NCBI RefSeq assembly: GCF_003428645.1
Contig: NZ_QVQH01000011.1
Location: 1-64,000 of the forward strand
Length of the DNA: 64,000 bases
Direction: 5' to 3'
Origin: Geodermatophilus marinus
GTDB taxonomy: Bacteria > Actinomycetota > Actinomycetes > Mycobacteriales > Geodermatophilaceae
Position numbers and translations under genes: made by a program. The notes beneath the pieces are model-generated. The model was not told the DNA's origin. It worked only from the letters and a program-made list of their open reading frames with translations, and searched no databases. Below are positions 5,435 through 32,951 of this stretch, piece after piece. The stretch's first letter is position 1. Each line of letters starts with the position of its first letter.

Positions 5435-8089
5435 GTGGGCGGGAGTGCCCGGCTCGGGACGGCGGACCGGCGGGGTGCCGCGCAGGCCGGCGGCGGGACC
5501 GTCGCCGTCCTCGTCGGCCTGCTGGTGGTCCTCGTCGGCTACCCGGTGCTCGACGGCCTCGTCGCCGACGTGGTCTACCTGGGGGTGGTGTGGGCGGCCG
5601 CCGCGATGGCCTGGTGGGCGGTGCAGCGGCAGGGCACCCCACCGGGGACGGCGCTGGTCGCCGTCGGCGTCAGCCTCAACGCCACCGGGGAGTCCTTCTG
5701 GGTCCTGCAGGACTGGGTCGGCGCGGCGCCCACCGTGTCGGCGGCCGACGGCGCCTACCTCGCCGGCTACGTGGCCCTCGGTGCCGGCATCTGGCGCACG
5801 GCGAGCAGCCGCGGGCGCGGCCGCCCCGAACAGGTGGACGGCTGGCTGGACGGTGCCGCGGTCTTCGTCGCGGCCTTCCTGCTCGCCTGGCAGTTCTCCG
5901 TGGGAGCGCTGGTCGCCGACGACGCGCTGCACCCGTTCACCCGGCTGGTCTGGGCACTGTACCCGGCGCTGGACGCCGCCCTCATCGGGCTGGTGCTCCG
6001 CCTGCTGGCCACCCGCGCCCGCGGTGACCGGGCCGCCCTCGCCCTCACCGCAGGTGCGGCCTGCTGGCTGGCCTCCGACACGGCCTACCTGCTGCTGGCC
6101 GATGCCGACCCGATGAGCACCTGGCTGGACACCGGCTGGCTGTGCGGCGCGCTGCTCATCGCCGCGGCGACCCGGCACCGGGCCCCGGCCGGCACCGACC
6201 CGGCCGATCGGCCCCTCGGGACGGGGCGGCTGGCGATCAGCATGGGCACGCTGCTGGTGCCGGCCGGCCTGCACCTCGTCGACGACCGGGTCGGGGCCGG
6301 GGGCACGCACGCGAGCATGGTCGGCGGCACGCTCCTGCTCACCCTCATCGTGTTCGTCCGCACCACGCGGCTGCTGCGCGCCGAGTCCGCGGCCCGCGCG
6401 CTGGTGGCCTCCCAGCAGCGGTACGGCGCCGCCCTCGCGCGCCATTCCTCCGACGCCGTGGTCGTGCTCGACGAGCGTGGTCGGCCGCTGAGCTGCCCCT
6501 CGTCCCCCGGGGGGCTCGAGCCGGGCGCCGGGACGAGCGCCGAGGAGCTGCTCGGGCTCACCGGCGTCGACCCCGCGCAGGCCCGGGTGGTCTTCGACCG
6601 GGCGCTGGCCGCCGGTGGCTCGGTGGTCGCGGCCGAGCTGCCCTGCCGGCGGGACGGCGTGGACCGCTGGGTGGCCGTCCGGCTGGTCGACCTGCGCACC
6701 GACCCCGACGTCGGGGGCGTCGTCGTCCACGTCACCGACATCACCGACCGCAAGCGCGCCGAGGCGGCCCTGGCCCACCAGGCCTTCCACGACCCCCTCA
6801 CCGGGCTGGCCAACCGGGCGCTGTTCACCGACCGCGTCGAGCAGGCGCTGCGCCGCCGCCGGCGGAGCTCGTCCGCGCCGGCCGTCGTCTTCGTCGACCT
6901 CGACCGGTTCAAGGCGGTCAACGACACCCTCGGTCACGCGGCCGGCGACGCGCTGCTCGTCGAGGTCGCCGGCCGGCTGCGCGGTGCGGTGCGGGCCGGG
7001 GACACCGTCGCCCGCCTGGGCGGGGACGAGTTCGCCGTCCTCGCCGAGCTCACCTCGGGCGCCCCGGGCGAGGCCGAGGCGGCCGCCGGCCGGGTGCTGG
7101 AGGCGCTGCGCCACCCCGCCGTGGTCGCCGGCCACCAGGTGCCGGTGTCGGCGAGCGTCGGGGTCGTCGTGGCCGCCGACGGGGCCGACGCGGACTCCCT
7201 GGTCCGCGACGCGGACACCGCCATGTACGAGGCCAAGGTCGCCGGCCGCGGCCGCCTCGCGCTCTTCGACCCGGCCATGCGCGCGGCCACGGTCGAGCGC
7301 CGGCTGCTGGAGCAGGAGCTGCGCGGGGCGCTGGAGGGCGGCCAGCTCCGGCTGGTGCACCAGCCCGTCGTCGACCTCGCCGACGGCCGGGTCGTGGGGT
7401 TCGAGGCGCTGCTGCGCTGGAACTCCCCGGTGCTCGGCCCCGTGCCACCCGCCCGCTTCGTGCCCGTCGCCGAGGAGCTCGGCCTCATCGGCGCGATCGG
7501 CGAGTGGGTGCTGCACGAGGCCTGCCGGACCGCAGCGGCCTGGCGCCGCGAGCACCCGGCCGCCGCCGGGCTCACCATGGCCGTCAACCTCTCCGCGGTG
7601 CAGCTGACCTCGCCCGGCCTGCTGGGCTCGGTGCGCGCCGCGCTGGCCGGCTCCGGCCTGCCGCCGGAGGCCCTGGTGCTCGAGGTCACCGAGACCGCCC
7701 TGGTGCAGGACGCGGCCCGGGCCGCCGGGTCGCTGGCCGGGCTGCGGGAGCTCGGCGTCCGCCTGGCCCTCGACGACTTCGGCACCGGCTACTCCTCGCT
7801 GCAGCACCTGCAGCGGTTCACCGTCGACGTCCTCAAGATCGACCGGTCCTTCGTCGCCGAGCTGCCCGAGGACGGCGGGCTGCCACCCCTCCTGCGCGGC
7901 CTGCTGGAGCTCGGCCGCGCGCTGGGCCTGGAGGTCCTCGCCGAGGGCGTGGAGACCGAGGCCCAGCGGCGGGCGCTGGCCCGGTCCGGCTGCGACTCCG
8001 CGCAGGGCTACCTCTTCGCCCGGCCGCTGGAGACCACCGACGCCGAGCTGCTCCTGCTCGGCCAGCCGGCGACCGCACCGCGGCTCTGA
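5435..8089 (+). CDS. Membrane-anchored PAS-GGDEF-EAL cyclic-di-GMP enzyme
   Basis: Bifunctional-type protein of 884 residues. About eight to nine membrane segments (residues 22-310) precede a PAS-like region, a GGDEF domain and an EAL domain. The GGDEF motif is intact (RLGGDEFAVL) and an RAGD inhibitory I-site lies five residues before it. The EAL domain keeps FEALLRW, DDFGTGYSS, LKIDRSF and AEGVET, so both synthesis and breakdown of c-di-GMP are plausible. The GTG at 5435 is chosen because GGAGGAGG (5421-5428) sits six bases before it; an in-frame ATG at 5396 lacks this. It follows the glucan operon by 290 bp, behind its own promoter and a structured leader. Confidence 0.9.
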   Translation: MGGSARLGTADRRGAAQAGGGTVAVLVGLLVVLVGYPVLDGLVADVVYLGVVWAAAAMAWWAVQRQGTPPGTALVAVGVSLNATGESFWVLQDWVGAAPTVSAADGAYLAGYVALGAGIWRTASSRGRGRPEQVDGWLDGAAVFVAAFLLAWQFSVGALVADDALHPFTRLVWALYPALDAALIGLVLRLLATRARGDRAALALTAGAACWLASDTAYLLLADADPMSTWLDTGWLCGALLIAAATRHRAPAGTDPADRPLGTGRLAISMGTLLVPAGLHLVDDRVGAGGTHASMVGGTLLLTLIVFVRTTRLLRAESAARALVASQQRYGAALARHSSDAVVVLDERGRPLSCPSSPGGLEPGAGTSAEELLGLTGVDPAQARVVFDRALAAGGSVVAAELPCRRDGVDRWVAVRLVDLRTDPDVGGVVVHVTDITDRKRAEAALAHQAFHDPLTGLANRALFTDRVEQALRRRRRSSSAPAVVFVDLDRFKAVNDTLGHAAGDALLVEVAGRLRGAVRAGDTVARLGGDEFAVLAELTSGAPGEAEAAAGRVLEALRHPAVVAGHQVPVSASVGVVVAADGADADSLVRDADTAMYEAKVAGRGRLALFDPAMRAATVERRLLEQELRGALEGGQLRLVHQPVVDLADGRVVGFEALLRWNSPVLGPVPPARFVPVAEELGLIGAIGEWVLHEACRTAAAWRREHPAAAGLTMAVNLSAVQLTSPGLLGSVRAALAGSGLPPEALVLEVTETALVQDAARAAGSLAGLRELGVRLALDDFGTGYSSLQHLQRFTVDVLKIDRSFVAELPEDGGLPPLLRGLLELGRALGLEVLAEGVETEAQRRALARSGCDSAQGYLFARPLETTDAELLLLGQPATAPRL

Positions 8090-26056: not shown

Positions 26057-26430
26057 GGGGGTGAATGGTCTCGACTTCGGTCGTTCGACCAGGGGAAGCG
26101 AGCCGAGGAAGGCAACGATGACCTCGTTAACCATGCGTTGCGACACAACAAGTGCCGCTGATAAGCGCACTGACTACGCTCTCGCTGCCTGATCGCAGCT
26201 AGGCGTGTCTGTCAGCCCGGGTTCGTCATCGGCCCGGAATCTGGCATCAGCTAGATGACTCACCGTGCGTGCCGGTCGCGGGTACGTGCGGGACACCTCA
26301 CAGCGACTGGGCCCGTCACACCGACCCGTCCGTGGGATCGGTGGGGCCGAGCAGAGACACAGCGGACTGCGCTCGGAGAAGCCCTGGTTCTGCGTCGAAG
26401 GACGCGGGTTCGATTCCCGCCACCTCCACC
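26057..26430 (+). ncRNA. ssrA: tmRNA (transfer-messenger RNA)
   Basis: The 5' end GGGGGTGAATGG pairs with the 3' end CACCTCC-A as a tRNA-Ala-like acceptor stem, and GGGTTCGATTCCC forms the T-arm. The tag frame begins at GCT 26157 and reads ADKRTDYALAA before TGA at 26190-26192; GCC at 26154 could add one more Ala. The terminal CCA is not encoded (ACC then C). It works with SmpB to rescue stalled ribosomes and mark the peptide for proteolysis through the LAA end. Confidence 0.95.
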
Positions 26431-26474
26431 CCGGGGTCTCGGCGAGATGCCGGGACCGCAGCTGGCGACACAGG

Positions 26475-27062: not shown

Positions 27063-27143
27063 CGTGGTCCGATCCGACCACGCCGCGGCCGCCGGTGGTT
27101 GGTCGCTTCGGGCGATGAGGCGCCGCGCCCGCATTCCTAGCGT
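27063..27143 (+). promoter_or_regulatory. Operator-promoter cassette A (inverted repeat plus TAGCGT)
   Basis: A 20-bp inverted repeat with arms CGTGGTC/GACCACG and a six-base centre lies at 27063-27082. TTGGTCG follows at 27099, CGATG at 27113, and the -10 box TAGCGT at 27138-27143. The same parts in the same order occur at 30006-30086, with the repeat-to-TAGCGT distance exactly 75 bases in both. A regulator-binding site is inferred, probably of the TPR-LuxR protein encoded between the two copies. Confidence 0.6.
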
Positions 27144-27186
27144 CGGAGGGCGTCAGGAACATCAGTGGAACCCGGGGAGGCACCCC

Positions 27187-27468
27187 ATGTCCGTCATCAT
27201 GATGATCGACAACCCCCACGGCTCACAGGAGATCTACGAGCGGGTCGCGGCCGGCCGGACCCTGCCGATCGGCGGCAGCGTGCACCTGGCCGGGCCGGGC
27301 CCGCACGGCGGCTGGCGCGTGATCGACGTGTTCGACAGCGAGGAGGAGGGGCGCCGGTTCGTCCGCGACGAGCTGGCCCCCGCGCTGCGCGCCGCCGGGG
27401 CGCAGGGTCCGCCGCCGCCCGTGGAGTTCTGGCCGGTGTACCGCTGCGTGACGGGGGTGCCGGCGTGA
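27187..27468 (+). CDS. Small dimeric alpha/beta-barrel-like protein, unknown function
   Basis: 93-residue protein MSVIMMIDNPHGSQEIYERV... with the segment GGWRVIDVFDSEEEGRRFVRDELAPALRAAG, which has the strand-helix pattern of ABM/GYD-type small barrels. No catalytic residues can be assigned. A ggggagg Shine-Dalgarno (27175-27181) precedes the ATG. It is the first gene behind operator cassette A and overlaps the next gene by GTGA. Confidence 0.7.
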   Translation: MSVIMMIDNPHGSQEIYERVAAGRTLPIGGSVHLAGPGPHGGWRVIDVFDSEEEGRRFVRDELAPALRAAGAQGPPPPVEFWPVYRCVTGVPA

Positions 27469-28205
27469 CCGCGACCACGTCCCCGGGACGGCCGAGCCAC
27501 ACCGCCCGGCCGTCGCCGTCGATGCGCTCGGCGGGGTACGCCCGGGGCCCCGGGCCGGGCTCGTGGAGCCGCCCGCGGCGGCTGCTGGGCGCGGCGATCG
27601 TGGCCGTGGCGCCGCTCGTGCTGCTCGGCGGCATCCTCTACCACCCGTTCATCGCCGACCTGCGGCACAAGCACGACGTGGCGGCCGCGCTGACCGCGTC
27701 GACGACCCGGTGGTCCATCGCGCACCTCGTCGCGGCCGTCGGCTCGGCGCTGGTCGCGCTCGCGTTCCTCGCGGTCGCCACGGCGCTGCGGCAGCGGGGC
27801 GAGTGGCGGTGGAGCGGCCGCGCGGTGCCGTTCGTCGTCGTCGGCAGCACGCTGTTCGCGCTGCTGCCCGCGATGGAGATCGGGGTGCTGGCGGCCTCCC
27901 TCGCCGGCGCCGACGCCGAGGCGGTGCTGATCGAGCTCGAGCCCTGGTTCCGGCCGGTGCTGCTCGGTTCGGCGGCGGTCTTCGCCGTCGGTGTGGCCTG
28001 CGCGGCCAGGGCCGTCGTGCGCGCCAAGGTGCTCGGGCGGGCGCTGACCGCGGTCGTCGTCGGCGCCTTGGCGGTCACCGCGGTGTCCCGCTTCCTCCCG
28101 TTCGGGGCGGCGCTGGTCGTGGGCGCGGCCGCGCTGGTGGTCGGCCTGCTGCCGCTCGCGGGCACGGTGGCGGCACGGCCACCGGTCCCGGCCGGGCCGG
28201 GCTGA
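27465..28205 (+). CDS. Multi-spanning membrane protein of unknown function
   Basis: 246-residue protein with a Ser/Pro-rich cytoplasmic start (1-40) and about six hydrophobic helices, including LLGAAIVAVAPLVLLGGIL and WSIAHLVAAVGSALVALAF. Its general look is that of DUF4386-like actinobacterial membrane proteins, but I cannot assign a family with confidence. The GTG overlaps the stop of the small barrel gene, so the two are made together. A large hairpin ends the unit. Confidence 0.65.
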   Translation: MTATTSPGRPSHTARPSPSMRSAGYARGPGPGSWSRPRRLLGAAIVAVAPLVLLGGILYHPFIADLRHKHDVAAALTASTTRWSIAHLVAAVGSALVALAFLAVATALRQRGEWRWSGRAVPFVVVGSTLFALLPAMEIGVLAASLAGADAEAVLIELEPWFRPVLLGSAAVFAVGVACAARAVVRAKVLGRALTAVVVGALAVTAVSRFLPFGAALVVGAAALVVGLLPLAGTVAARPPVPAGPG

Positions 28206-28217
28206 CGGCGGGACTCC

Positions 28218-28262
28218 GGGCCAGGCTCCGGCGGATCGGCCCGATCCACCGGAGCCTGGCCC
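28218..28262 (+). terminator. Long hairpin terminator
   Basis: gggccaggctccgg (28218-28231) pairs perfectly with ccggagcctggccc (28249-28262), and an inner ggatcg/cgatcc stem extends it. It lies 13 bp after the membrane-protein stop and separates this unit from the LuxR gene. Confidence 0.7.
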
Positions 28263-28314
28263 ACACCCCTGGACCGGCCGGTCCGGTCGGCGGTTTCATG
28301 GGGTGGGGAGACGG

Positions 28315-29955
28315 ATGACGCTCGCGGAGAAGCTCACGACGGCGCGGGAGGCGGTGGCCGCCCGGGAGTGGGCGCGGGCCTACGACGCGCTGCGCGCCGC
28401 CGACCGGGACGGCGAACTGGGTGCCGACGACCTGGAACGGCTGGCGCTGGCGGCCTACCTGAGCGGGCACGACGAGGCCCACGAGGACGCGATGGAGCGC
28501 CTCGTGCACCGGCTGGACGAGGCGGGTGAGGCCCGCCGCGCGGCGAGGAGCGCGTTCTGGCTGGCCCTCGCCCTGCTCCTGCGCGGCGAGCCGGCCCGCG
28601 GCGGCGGCTGGCTGGCCCGCGCCCAGCGCACCCTGGCCGAGGCGGGGAACCCTCCGTGCCCGGAGCAGGGCCTGCTGATGGCGGCGATGGCCCTCCACCA
28701 CCTGGGCGTCGGGGAGAGCGAGGTCGCGTCGGACGTGTTCGACCAGGTGGTCGCCATCGGCCGGCGCTTCCGTGATCCCGACGTCACCGCCTTCGGCTTC
28801 TGCGGCCGCGGGCAGGCGATGATCGCGGGGGGCCGGCGTGACACCGGGCTGCGCCTCCTCGACGAGGCGATGGTCGCCGTGACGGCGGACGACGTCTCGC
28901 CGGTCACCGTCGGCATCGTGTACTGCGCGGTCGTGGTGACCTGCCACCAGGCCTTCGACCTGCACCGGGCGCGCGAGTGGACGGGCGTGCTCAGCCGCTG
29001 GTGCGCCGCCCAGCCGGAGCTCGTGCCCTACCGGGGACAGTGCCTCGTGCACCGCGCGCAGGTGCTCGCGATGGAGGGCCGCTGGCCCGAGGCCATGGAG
29101 GAGATGGCCCGGGCACGGCAGCGGCTGGCCGATCCGCCCGGCCAGCCGGCGGTCGGGATGGCCTGGTACGAGACCGGGGAGCTGCTCCGGCGACTGGGCC
29201 GGCACCCCGACGCTGAGGACTGCTACCGGCGGGCGAGCCAGCACGGCCACTCGCCGCAGCCCGGCATGCTCCTGCTGCGGCTGGCCCAGGGCCGCGGCGC
29301 GGAGGCCCGCTCCGCCGTCGACGCCGTGTTGGCGACCGCGACGACCGCGGCCGACCGCTGGGCGTTGCTCGTCGCGGCGATCGAGGTCTGCTGCGCCACC
29401 GGCGACGCGGCGGCCGCCCGCGCGGCCGCCGACGAGCTGGAGGCGCTCGCCCGGGAGCAGCCGGGCGAATGGCTGGGGGCGATCGCCACGACCGCGGCGG
29501 GCACCGTGCTGCTGGCGGAGGGGGCTCCCCGGGAGGCAGGGGCGGTGCTCGCCCGCGCCCGGGACGCCTGGCACGAGCTGCGCGTGCCCTACGAGGCGGC
29601 GCGGGTGCGGATCCTGCTGGGCGAGGTCTGGTCGGCCCTCGGCGACGCCGACGGGGCGCTGCTGGAGTGGGACGCCGCCCGCTACACCTTCGAGCAGCTC
29701 GGCGCGGTCGACGACCTCGCCCGGGTCGCCGCGCGGCTGGCGCCGGAGGCGACCGAGCGGCCCAGCGGGCTGACCGACCGGGAGCTGGAGGTGCTCCGGC
29801 TGGTGGCACAGGGGCAGACGAACCGCGAGATCGCCGCCACCCTGGTGCTCAGCGAGCACACGGTCCGGCGGCACCTGCAGAATGTGTTCGCCCGGCTCGG
29901 GGTCTCCTCCCGCGCGGCCGCGGTCGCCTTCGCCGTGCAGCACGACCTCGTCTGA
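28315..29955 (+). CDS. TPR-repeat LuxR-type transcriptional regulator (no ATPase domain)
   Basis: 546-residue protein. Residues 1-475 are helical TPR-like repeats (for example WARAYDALRAADRDGELG and RRLGRHPDAEDCYRRAS); residues 486-546 form a LuxR/FixJ helix-turn-helix (LTDRELEVLRLVAQGQTNREIAATL, VRRHLQNVFARLGVSSRAA). There is no Walker A motif, so this is not a full LAL/MalT ATPase regulator. ATG at 28315 follows ggtgggga. The gene sits between two identical operator-promoter cassettes, which makes it the natural candidate to bind them. The TPR part may take a protein or small-molecule input. Confidence 0.8.
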   Translation: MTLAEKLTTAREAVAAREWARAYDALRAADRDGELGADDLERLALAAYLSGHDEAHEDAMERLVHRLDEAGEARRAARSAFWLALALLLRGEPARGGGWLARAQRTLAEAGNPPCPEQGLLMAAMALHHLGVGESEVASDVFDQVVAIGRRFRDPDVTAFGFCGRGQAMIAGGRRDTGLRLLDEAMVAVTADDVSPVTVGIVYCAVVVTCHQAFDLHRAREWTGVLSRWCAAQPELVPYRGQCLVHRAQVLAMEGRWPEAMEEMARARQRLADPPGQPAVGMAWYETGELLRRLGRHPDAEDCYRRASQHGHSPQPGMLLLRLAQGRGAEARSAVDAVLATATTAADRWALLVAAIEVCCATGDAAAARAAADELEALAREQPGEWLGAIATTAAGTVLLAEGAPREAGAVLARARDAWHELRVPYEAARVRILLGEVWSALGDADGALLEWDAARYTFEQLGAVDDLARVAARLAPEATERPSGLTDRELEVLRLVAQGQTNREIAATLVLSEHTVRRHLQNVFARLGVSSRAAAVAFAVQHDLV

Positions 29956-30005
29956 CCTATTCCCTTTCCGCGCGGCACGGTTCCGCCGCGCCCCGGTGCG
30001 GGGCG

Positions 30006-30086
30006 CGTGGCCCGTTCGGACCACGGCCGGGCCGGCAGAGTTGGTCGTCCCGGTCGATGCCCGCACCGGGTCGCGCTCCCTAGCGT
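30006..30086 (+). promoter_or_regulatory. Operator-promoter cassette B (inverted repeat plus TAGCGT)
   Basis: The inverted repeat CGTGGCCCGTTCGGACCACG lies at 30006-30025, TTGGTCG at 30041, CGATG at 30055 and the -10 box TAGCGT at 30081-30086. Both arms and spacing match cassette A (27063-27143), while the bases between differ, so selection on the protein-binding parts is likely. Confidence 0.6.
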
Positions 30087-30131: not shown

Positions 30132-31067
30132 ATGCGCGCCACCGACACCACCGGCCGGACGGGCCCCCGCGGCGACGCCGCGGGAGCGGGCACGATCGCC
30201 GGCATCCGCGCGAGCACGATCCACGACCTGCCGCTGACCGAGCGGCGGCTCGAGGCCGCCGGCATCCCGACCGCTGTCCTGGAGGGCGGCGAGGGCCCGC
30301 CGGTCGTGCTGCTGCACGGCCCTGGCGAGTTCGCCGCCCTGTGGGGCCGCGTCGTCCCCCCGCTCACCGCGACCCACCGGGTCGTGGTCCCCGACCTGCC
30401 CGGCCACGGCGCCTCGGGGCTGCCCGGCGACGGGCCGCTGGATGCCGAGCGCTTCTTGTCCTGGCTGCGGGACCTGATCGGGCAGACCTGCCCGGGGCCG
30501 CCCGCGCTCGTCGGCCACCTGGCCGGCGGTGCCCTCGCGCTGCGCCACGCGATCGACGGCGGACCGGTGGAGCGCGTGGTCCTGGTCGACTCGAGCGGGC
30601 TGGCCATGAGCCGGCCGGCGGTGTCGTTCGCCGCGGCACTCGCCGGCTACATCGCTCACCCGACGGTCCGCAGCCTGGACCGCTTCGTCGGCCGGTGCAT
30701 GTACGACTTCGACGGCGTGCGGCGCGACCTCGGGCCGCGCTGGGACCCGCTCGCGGACTACGCGCTCGCGGGCGTGCGGCAGCGCGGCTCCCGCTCGGCG
30801 GTGCTGGCCTTCGCGACCGCCTTCGGCATGTTCCCGCTCCGCCGACGCGACCTGGCCCGGATCCCGGTGCCGGTGTCGATGATCTGGGGACGTCACGACC
30901 TGCAGAACCGGCTGCAGATCGCCGAGGCGGCGGCCGCGCGGTTCGGCTGGCCGCTCGAGGTCATCGAGGACGTGCGCGACGACCCCTGCTTCGAGCGGCC
31001 CGACGCCGCCGTCCCGGCGCTGCGAGCCGCCCTGGCCCGGCCGCTGCGCCGCCACGTGCCGGCCTGA
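30132..31067 (+). CDS. Alpha/beta-hydrolase fold protein lacking the catalytic Ser and His
   Basis: 311 residues with a clear alpha/beta-hydrolase fold: VVLLHGPGE (oxyanion loop), VVVPDLPGHGASG and IPVPVSMIWGRHDLQN with the acid-strand Asp. The nucleophile elbow reads VGHLAGG, with Leu130 where GHSxGG has Ser, and the C-terminal DxGHxPxxExP motif reads VRDDPCFERP, with no His. Both changes argue for a non-catalytic protein such as a ligand binder or scaffold. A ggaggagg Shine-Dalgarno precedes the ATG, and cassette B lies upstream. No frameshift is seen, so the fold is being kept. Confidence 0.8.
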   Translation: MRATDTTGRTGPRGDAAGAGTIAGIRASTIHDLPLTERRLEAAGIPTAVLEGGEGPPVVLLHGPGEFAALWGRVVPPLTATHRVVVPDLPGHGASGLPGDGPLDAERFLSWLRDLIGQTCPGPPALVGHLAGGALALRHAIDGGPVERVVLVDSSGLAMSRPAVSFAAALAGYIAHPTVRSLDRFVGRCMYDFDGVRRDLGPRWDPLADYALAGVRQRGSRSAVLAFATAFGMFPLRRRDLARIPVPVSMIWGRHDLQNRLQIAEAAAARFGWPLEVIEDVRDDPCFERPDAAVPALRAALARPLRRHVPA

Positions 31068-31316: not shown

Positions 31317-32951
31317 ATGAGCACGACGGAGGGGAGAGCCCCGGGGCAGGCCGACGAGGCGCGCCGGCGCGGCGCGTTCAGCTCCCGGCGCGTCTTCATC
31401 CTGGCGGCGATCGGCTCCGCCGTCGGGCTCGGCAACATCTGGCGGTTCCCGTACGTCGCCTACGAGAACGGCGGCGGCGCCTTCGTGGTGCCCTACCTGG
31501 TCGCGTTGCTGACCGCCGGCATCCCGTTCCTGCTCCTGGACTACGCGATCGGCCACCGCCACCGCGGCTCCGCGCCGCTCTCCTTCGCCCGGCTGCGCCG
31601 CGGCACCGAGGGCCTGGGCTGGTGGCAGGTGGGCATCTGCTTCGTCATCGCCGTCTACTACGCCGCGGTCATCGCCTGGGCGCTGCGCTACACCTTCTTC
31701 TCGCTCGACGAGGCCTGGGGTGCCGACCCCGAGGGGTTCTTCTTCGGCGAGTTCCTCCAGGCCGGGGACGTCGAGGTCACCGCCGACATCGTGCCCGGGG
31801 TGCTGGTGCCGCTCCTGCTGGTCTGGCTGGCCGTCCTCGTGATCATGGCCCTGGGCGTCCAGCGCGGCATCGGTGCGACCTCGCTGGTCTTCATCCCGGT
31901 GCTGGTGCTCGCCTTCGCCGTCCTCGTGGTGCAGGCGCTGTTCCTGGAGGGCGCTGCCGCCGGGCTCGACGCGCTGTTCACGCCCGACTGGTCGGCGCTC
32001 GCCTCGGCTCCCGTCTGGGCCGCCGCGTTCGGCCAGATCTTCTTCTCGCTGTCGATCGGCTTCGGCATCATGATCACGTACGCCTCGTACGTCGGCCGTC
32101 GCGAGGACATGATCGGCTCCGGCCTCGTCGTCGGCTTCTCCAATTCCGGCTTCGAGCTGCTCGCCGGCATCGGCGTGTTCGCCGCCCTCGGGTTCATGGC
32201 CCAGGCCGGTGGGGTCGCGGTCGGCGAGGTCGCCAGCGACGGGATCGGGCTGGCCTTCATCGCCTTCCCCACGATCATCAGCGAGGCCCCGGCCGGCGCC
32301 CTCCTCGGCGTCCTGTTCTTCGGCTCGCTGGTCATCGCCGGCGTCACCTCGCTGGTCAGCGTGATCGAGGTCGTGATCTCCGCCGTCCGCGACAAGCTCG
32401 ACACCGGCCGCCTCACCGCGACGCTTCTGGTGGGCGTCCCCGCCGCGGTGCTGAGCCTGGTGCTCTTCAGCACGACGAGCGGCATCTACGTCCTCGACGT
32501 CGTCGACCACTTCGTCAACCAGTACGGCATCCTCGTGGTCGCGCTGGTCAGCATGCTCATCGTCGCCTGGGTGCTCAGAGCCCTGACCGGGCTCGGCGAT
32601 CACCTCAACGTCCACGGCCGTCCCCGGGTCGGCGCGGGCTGGCGGGTGCTGGTCAGCCTGGTCGCCCCCGTGGGGCTGGCTCTCGTGCTCGTGTTCGCGC
32701 TGCGGGACGACCTCGCCGCGCCCTACGAGGACTACCCGACCTGGCTGCTGGTGGTCTGCGGCTGGGCACTGGTCCTGGCGCTGCCGCTGGTCGGCTTCCT
32801 CCTCGCCCGGCTGCCGTGGCACGCCGGGACCCACCTGGACGGGCCGCCACCCGGATCGGATCCGGCGACGCCCCTGCACGCGACCACTGCGACGGACCCG
32901 GCCCCCCGCGACCGCCCGGGGACCGGGCACGACGAGGGAGGACACCGGTGA
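31317..32951 (+). CDS. Sodium-dependent NSS/SLC6-family amino-acid transporter (MetP-like)
   Basis: 544-residue neurotransmitter:sodium symporter with 11-12 helices and a charged tail. The family hallmark AIGSAVGLGNIWRFPYVAYENGGG-type start of helix 1 is present, together with IFFSLSIGFGIMITYASYV for helix 6. The short gene that follows is a MetS-type subunit, as in the Corynebacterium methionine/alanine importer MetPS, so methionine or alanine uptake is a fair guess. acaggaggg precedes the ATG. The 250 bp upstream (31068-31316) show no gene. Confidence 0.85.
   Translation: MSTTEGRAPGQADEARRRGAFSSRRVFILAAIGSAVGLGNIWRFPYVAYENGGGAFVVPYLVALLTAGIPFLLLDYAIGHRHRGSAPLSFARLRRGTEGLGWWQVGICFVIAVYYAAVIAWALRYTFFSLDEAWGADPEGFFFGEFLQAGDVEVTADIVPGVLVPLLLVWLAVLVIMALGVQRGIGATSLVFIPVLVLAFAVLVVQALFLEGAAAGLDALFTPDWSALASAPVWAAAFGQIFFSLSIGFGIMITYASYVGRREDMIGSGLVVGFSNSGFELLAGIGVFAALGFMAQAGGVAVGEVASDGIGLAFIAFPTIISEAPAGALLGVLFFGSLVIAGVTSLVSVIEVVISAVRDKLDTGRLTATLLVGVPAAVLSLVLFSTTSGIYVLDVVDHFVNQYGILVVALVSMLIVAWVLRALTGLGDHLNVHGRPRVGAGWRVLVSLVAPVGLALVLVFALRDDLAAPYEDYPTWLLVVCGWALVLALPLVGFLLARLPWHAGTHLDGPPPGSDPATPLHATTATDPAPRDRPGTGHDEGGHR

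Follow-up and report, generated by a model that had tools for sequence, protein, structure and literature searches.

Two putative operator-promoter cassettes flank a gene for a TPR-LuxR regulator in the window, i.e. the 64-kb stretch of Geodermatophilus marinus DNA analysed here, and the locus raises the question of whether this protein controls the genes on both of its sides and by what kind of promoter it would do so. The cassette elements, the regulator gene, its putative target genes and the hairpin described below lie on the forward strand.

Anatomy of the two cassettes

In the left cassette, the putative distal operator is CGTGGTCCGATCCGACCACG (27063..27082), a near-perfect palindrome that is unchanged in the related loci L019 and L052; in the right cassette, it is CGTGGCCCGTTCGGACCACG (30006..30025), recognized by alignment and genome search. 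The hexamer TAGCGT, a predicted –10 element of the TANNNT type, starts at 27138 on the left (27138..27143), where it is invariant in orthologs and at the same place in relatives, and at 30081 on the right (30081..30086), also on the basis of orthologs and relatives. Both starts are 75 bases downstream of the start of the respective palindrome, so the two palindromes at this fixed distance from TAGCGT on either side of the TPR-LuxR gene are present as the preliminary description claimed. The motifs TTGGTCG and CGATG, which it listed as shared inner elements, are also there, but their register differs by one base from one cassette to the other (36 and 50 bases from the palindrome start on the left, 35 and 49 on the right). 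Rather than separate elements, they are best read from the alignments as one second, promoter-proximal copy of the operator over the –35 position, with the palindrome as the distal copy. The putative proximal operator of the left cassette is TTGGTCGCTTCGGGCGATGAGG (27099..27120), which overlaps the –35 position and aligns with TGCACNGTTCNNCCGAYGCGG of the relatives, and the cassette scan and ortholog alignment place that of the right cassette, TTGGTCGTCCCGGTCGATGCCC, at 30041..30062. Paralogs and relatives have a common plan, in which a distal site of 19–20 bp is followed 31–37 bp on by the proximal copy, with the pattern T-G-N-N-...-CGAYGCGG, and then by 13–14 bp and YTCCTAGCGT. The copies in the relatives are TGCACAGTTCTACCCATGCC (distal) and TGCACNGTTCNNCCGACGCGG (proximal), and those in the window are TGGYCCGWTCSGACCACG and TGGTCGNNNNGGNCGATG, respectively. 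Counted from the predicted –10, the centres are near –42 for the proximal and near –77 for the distal copy. A proximal site that overlaps –35 in such a rigid geometry fits a class II activator promoter, with the transcription start itself predicted. Furthermore, a scan of the region found no canonical sigma-70 promoter of the TTGACA/TATAAT type, which suits an activator-dependent promoter, and no T-tailed terminators.

The exact cassette pattern has no further copy in the window, and the whole-cassette scan gave exactly two matches where 0.3 were expected per 64 kb. The motif search proposed at the outset had a divided outcome. The bare palindrome occurs close to chance in the genome (140 sites per strand at one mismatch vs 94 for the reversed control, 11 sites when exact) because CGTGG..CCACG palindromes are frequent at high G+C, and it was rejected as evidence. 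The full 20-mer with at most two mismatches, on the other hand, is found in the 5.2 Mb genome at these two places only, and at three mismatches it reaches background (13 vs 11). The same counts also led to the rejection of any wider regulon for the window regulator. The core CGATG-N17..23-TAGCGT occurs five times in the genome, and three of these copies adjoin TPR-LuxR genes.

The regulator, its neighbours and their conservation

The gene between the cassettes (28315..29955) encodes a protein of 546 aa, for which Pfam assignments and a confident AlphaFold model (pLDDT 91.6) are available. The model is an all-helical superhelix of about 25 helices (residues 3–475) followed by a GerE/LuxR helix-turn-helix (HTH) domain at residues 485–540, where PF00196 scores 66.2 bits vs a curated cut-off of 23.5. 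MalT domain III (1hz4) is among its structural matches (TMt 0.71), and the NCBIfam MalT model covers only the HTH with a score far below cut-off. Pfam gives TPR and HTH matches only, with no NTPase (NB-ARC/AAA) module and no autoinducer-binding N-terminal domain, and the superhelix is modelled from residue 3. The choice of this protein as the likely regulator holds up on the comparative evidence given below, and we infer that both sites in each cassette are its operators.

The left cassette precedes a gene for a small protein of 93 aa (27187..27468) without a Pfam or NCBIfam match. The barrel fold proposed for it is weakly supported, since the model is of low confidence (pLDDT 65) and its weak fold matches do no more than suggest a ferredoxin-like or dimeric barrel fold. 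The GTG start of the next gene (27465..28205) overlaps the TGA stop of the small gene. Its hydrophobic product of 246 aa, probably a membrane protein, likewise has no match in Pfam or NCBIfam, and a search of 299 genomes of the order detected it in the three that carry this cluster and in no other. The left operon likely ends at a long hairpin without a T run (28218..28262; region MFE –75 kcal/mol, z –4.6), which is kept with changed letters in L019 and replaced by a different hairpin in L052. As a strong hairpin is thus kept at this place, read-through from the left operon into the regulator gene is probably limited. A tmRNA gene (Rfam RF00023, window 26057–26431) lies just upstream of the left cassette.

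The right cassette precedes a gene for a protein of the alpha/beta-hydrolase fold according to Pfam (30132..31067). Its designation as a pseudo-hydrolase is borne out, because the catalytic Ser (GHLAG) and His (DDP) are both lost, and these losses (GHLAG/GRVIG, DDP) are common to the window, L052, L053 and L055. The last of these, with GRVIG, is a relative at 50% identity that likewise adjoins a family regulator. At that locus (L042/L055), a regulator relative (48%) is followed by the pseudo-hydrolase relative, and a promoter –10 is not recognizable. The pairing of regulator and dead hydrolase thus also exists outside the twin-cassette lineage. A gene for a sodium:neurotransmitter symporter family protein (PF00209, window 31317–32951) lies downstream of the pseudo-hydrolase gene, and no cassette was found before it.

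Two further genomes of the Geodermatophilaceae, namely L019/L053 and L052, retain both cassettes together with all four genes. The closest named relative of the window genome is Geodermatophilus sp. YIM 151500 (L019), with a regulator identity of 93%, and it was the one useful locus from the search of genome contigs for related loci. L052 belongs to another genus and has a regulator identity of 72%. As cassettes and genes are retained down to this identity, the pair is not a plain recent duplication, in agreement with the preliminary description. The six-way alignment shows nearly invariant copies of the palindrome, TTGGTCG, CGATG and CTAGCGTC, set among spacers that differ. Sequence conservation is highest at these elements and breaks off immediately 5′ of the palindrome, beyond which the DNA has diverged. 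The left and right cassettes differ consistently (GTCCGATCC vs GCCCGTTCG), which indicates that the two cassettes already existed before these lineages separated.

Promoter plan and recognition helix across the family

A match to the promoter, counted as strong at a score of at least 14, was found within about 300 bases 3′ of the gene for 52% of 93 non-identical family regulators, and about half of these 93 have no such promoter within that distance. The controls gave 2.4% for shuffles and 2.6% for 818 ordinary genomic tiles, and among regulators sampled later (n = 23) the proportion was 74%. The distal copy lies 31–37 bp upstream of the proximal one in nearly all loci where it is recognizable; a clear distal site was not recognized in L041, L163 and L133. 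An independent pattern scan of 395 genomes of the class found the promoter core in 41, and in 8 of 30 promoter-core loci examined a LuxR-type gene ends 34–129 bases upstream on the same strand. Many family targets are FAD-dependent oxidoreductases and 13 of 52 are methyltransferases, and they further include alpha/beta hydrolases, SCO4226-like proteins and small membrane proteins. These targets are not related among themselves, so the promoter they have in common accompanies the regulator. The lack of a described counterpart, noted in the preliminary description, therefore needs to be narrowed: among the related TPR-LuxR genes that were sampled from Actinomycetes, most have a two-operator promoter behind them, and it is the second cassette that is special. 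The window lineage is the sole lineage seen with a second cassette, placed on the upstream barrel-membrane operon.

Several further arrangements were observed in the family. One GNAT acetyltransferase gene, in L029, stands behind a cassette-like promoter (near 7537, minus strand) and is convergent with the regulator gene; a target thus need not follow its regulator immediately and in the same orientation. Several targets, in L108, L109, L111, L114, L050, L141 and others, begin only 6–7 bases past the predicted –10, which points to leaderless mRNAs for some family members. In the genome of the window, the family has at least five more regulators or regulator fragments, on contigs C51, C30 (two, about 13 kb apart), C21 and C34, the copies on C21 and C34 being cut by contig ends.

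The recognition-helix stretch of the window regulator is SEHTVRRH (29851..29874), and its position was aligned with the NarL and VraR structures. The family pattern is S-x-[H/K/R]-T-V-x-R-H, and His at position 3 co-varies with TGGT in the operator. TGGT in the proximal copy accompanies His3 in 9 of 12 loci vs 2 of 41 without it (p = 2.4e-6), and TGGT or TGGC in the distal copy in 10 of 10 vs 1 of 28 (p = 2.3e-8). This link was first noticed in few loci and then held in new ones, where the later sample alone gave 2/2 vs 1/14 (p about 0.025, calculated from the rows of that sample). In a tree built without the HTH, SxHTV with TGGT appears in at least three separate clades; the tree-controlled pair test had 3 and 8 pairs, too few for significance. 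The exceptions are L115, L164, L172 and L210, with TGGT and no His3, and L161, which is below the promoter threshold and combines His3 with TGGG. An association of non-Ala at helix position 6 with TGGG was strong in the first sample and reached 4/7 in the later one, the three exceptions being close relatives. A rule connecting Ala6 with TGCA was dropped, as it held for 22 of 30 in the first sample and was weak in the later one. In the His3 group, the right half of the distal copy becomes the mirror image (GACCA), whereas that of the proximal copy remains CGAYG, presumably under the constraint of a role at –35. The letters of the site change with the DNA-reading residue, so the wiring should be predictable.

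Mode of control and relation to known systems

Read at the level of genomes, the comparisons establish the anatomy of the sites, their rigid geometry, the family linkage, the co-variation of operator and helix and the conservation of both cassettes. In our view, both units in the window are probably under local activation by the TPR-LuxR protein, a one-component regulator that would act via the distal and proximal operators. Binding of the operators, activation rather than repression and the signal sensed by the superhelix are what we infer beyond these comparisons. A regulator dimer would occupy the palindrome of the distal site (centre about –77), with additional protomers on the proximal copy (about –42), whose invariant right half CGAYGCGG would replace a canonical –35. 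Contact with RNA polymerase through sigma region 4 and the alpha CTD would then open the promoter with its TAGCGT –10. The left output would be the small protein and the membrane protein, closed off by the hairpin before the regulator gene, and the right output the pseudo-hydrolase. Sensing of a ligand or partner likely falls to the long superhelix. For the family as a whole, the best reading is that the regulators are local activators of a MalT-like kind, each acting on its neighbouring gene, which usually encodes a flavoprotein or a methyltransferase.

Alternatively, the regulator could sit on the same sites as a repressor until a ligand releases it; close pairing of operator and promoter is usual for local repressors too, and the proximal site does overlap the –35 region. 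We regard this as unlikely, because sites at about –42 and –77 leave the –10 free, the missing canonical –35 suits an activator, and LuxR/NarL/MalT relatives with sites at such positions mostly activate. Slightly less likely still is that an alternative sigma factor uses CGAYGCGG-N14-TTCCTAGCGT as its promoter and that the palindromes alone are operators. The –35-like and –10-like parts are indeed more constant than the left half-sites, but the pattern is sparse in the genome of the window, its best matches follow TPR-LuxR genes, and the proximal site has a left half that changes along with the regulator helix, so this site would be at least partly a regulator site. That the cassettes reflect chance, shared ancestry of functionless DNA or marks of a mobile block is very improbable and was already disfavoured: the high G+C does make such palindromes frequent, but the peaks of conservation at the elements, ending upstream of the palindrome, and the recurrence before unrelated target genes across the family speak against it.

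Local activation by the adjacent regulator, as preferred here, bears on the solo LuxR proteins with TPR-like sensors, which are numerous in actinobacteria and mostly without known targets. Genome sequences disclose the target, the operators and a helix-to-site correlation for a whole family. This gives direct predictions for the bench, assigns putative regulators to many flavoprotein and methyltransferase genes and provides regulator/operator pairs that are naturally related yet distinct. More tentatively, and with somewhat less than even confidence, we hypothesize that these are widespread actinobacterial self-contained switches, each with a superhelical sensor, a LuxR HTH, a fixed two-operator promoter and an adjacent small-molecule enzyme, kept apart by a readable helix-to-operator code; the window lineage would have gained a second output, and the dead hydrolase may be the ligand-binding partner of the sensor.

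MalT and the LAL regulators have multiple operator copies upstream of the promoter, and they resemble the window regulator both in this and in the order of a helical superhelix and a LuxR-type HTH. In contrast to them, the window regulator is without the NTPase module and is a superhelix from its start, and its operators, unlike MalT boxes, are palindrome-like sites of 19–20 bp in a fixed pair. LuxR binds the lux box with a site centre near –42, and the class II activators of the NarL/FixJ and LuxR types share with the window system the GerE/LuxR HTH and a site that is predicted to lie at this position in the window. Unlike them, the window regulator has no receiver or autoinducer domain, and a second site about 35 bp upstream belongs to the plan. 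AfsR of Streptomyces (SARP-NOD-TPR), outlined as an actinobacterial activator in PMC10936776, is also TPR-containing, but it has a SARP DNA-binding domain and an additional NOD domain. The TPR and LuxR combination was counted as a small sub-family in an actinobacterial census (PMC3466318), the searched text of which does not mention operators, promoters or binding sites, in contrast to the operator plan given here. A search of the open-access literature yielded no description of the motif, of TPR-LuxR operators or of a link from helix to site. The system is akin to known local LuxR-type activators.
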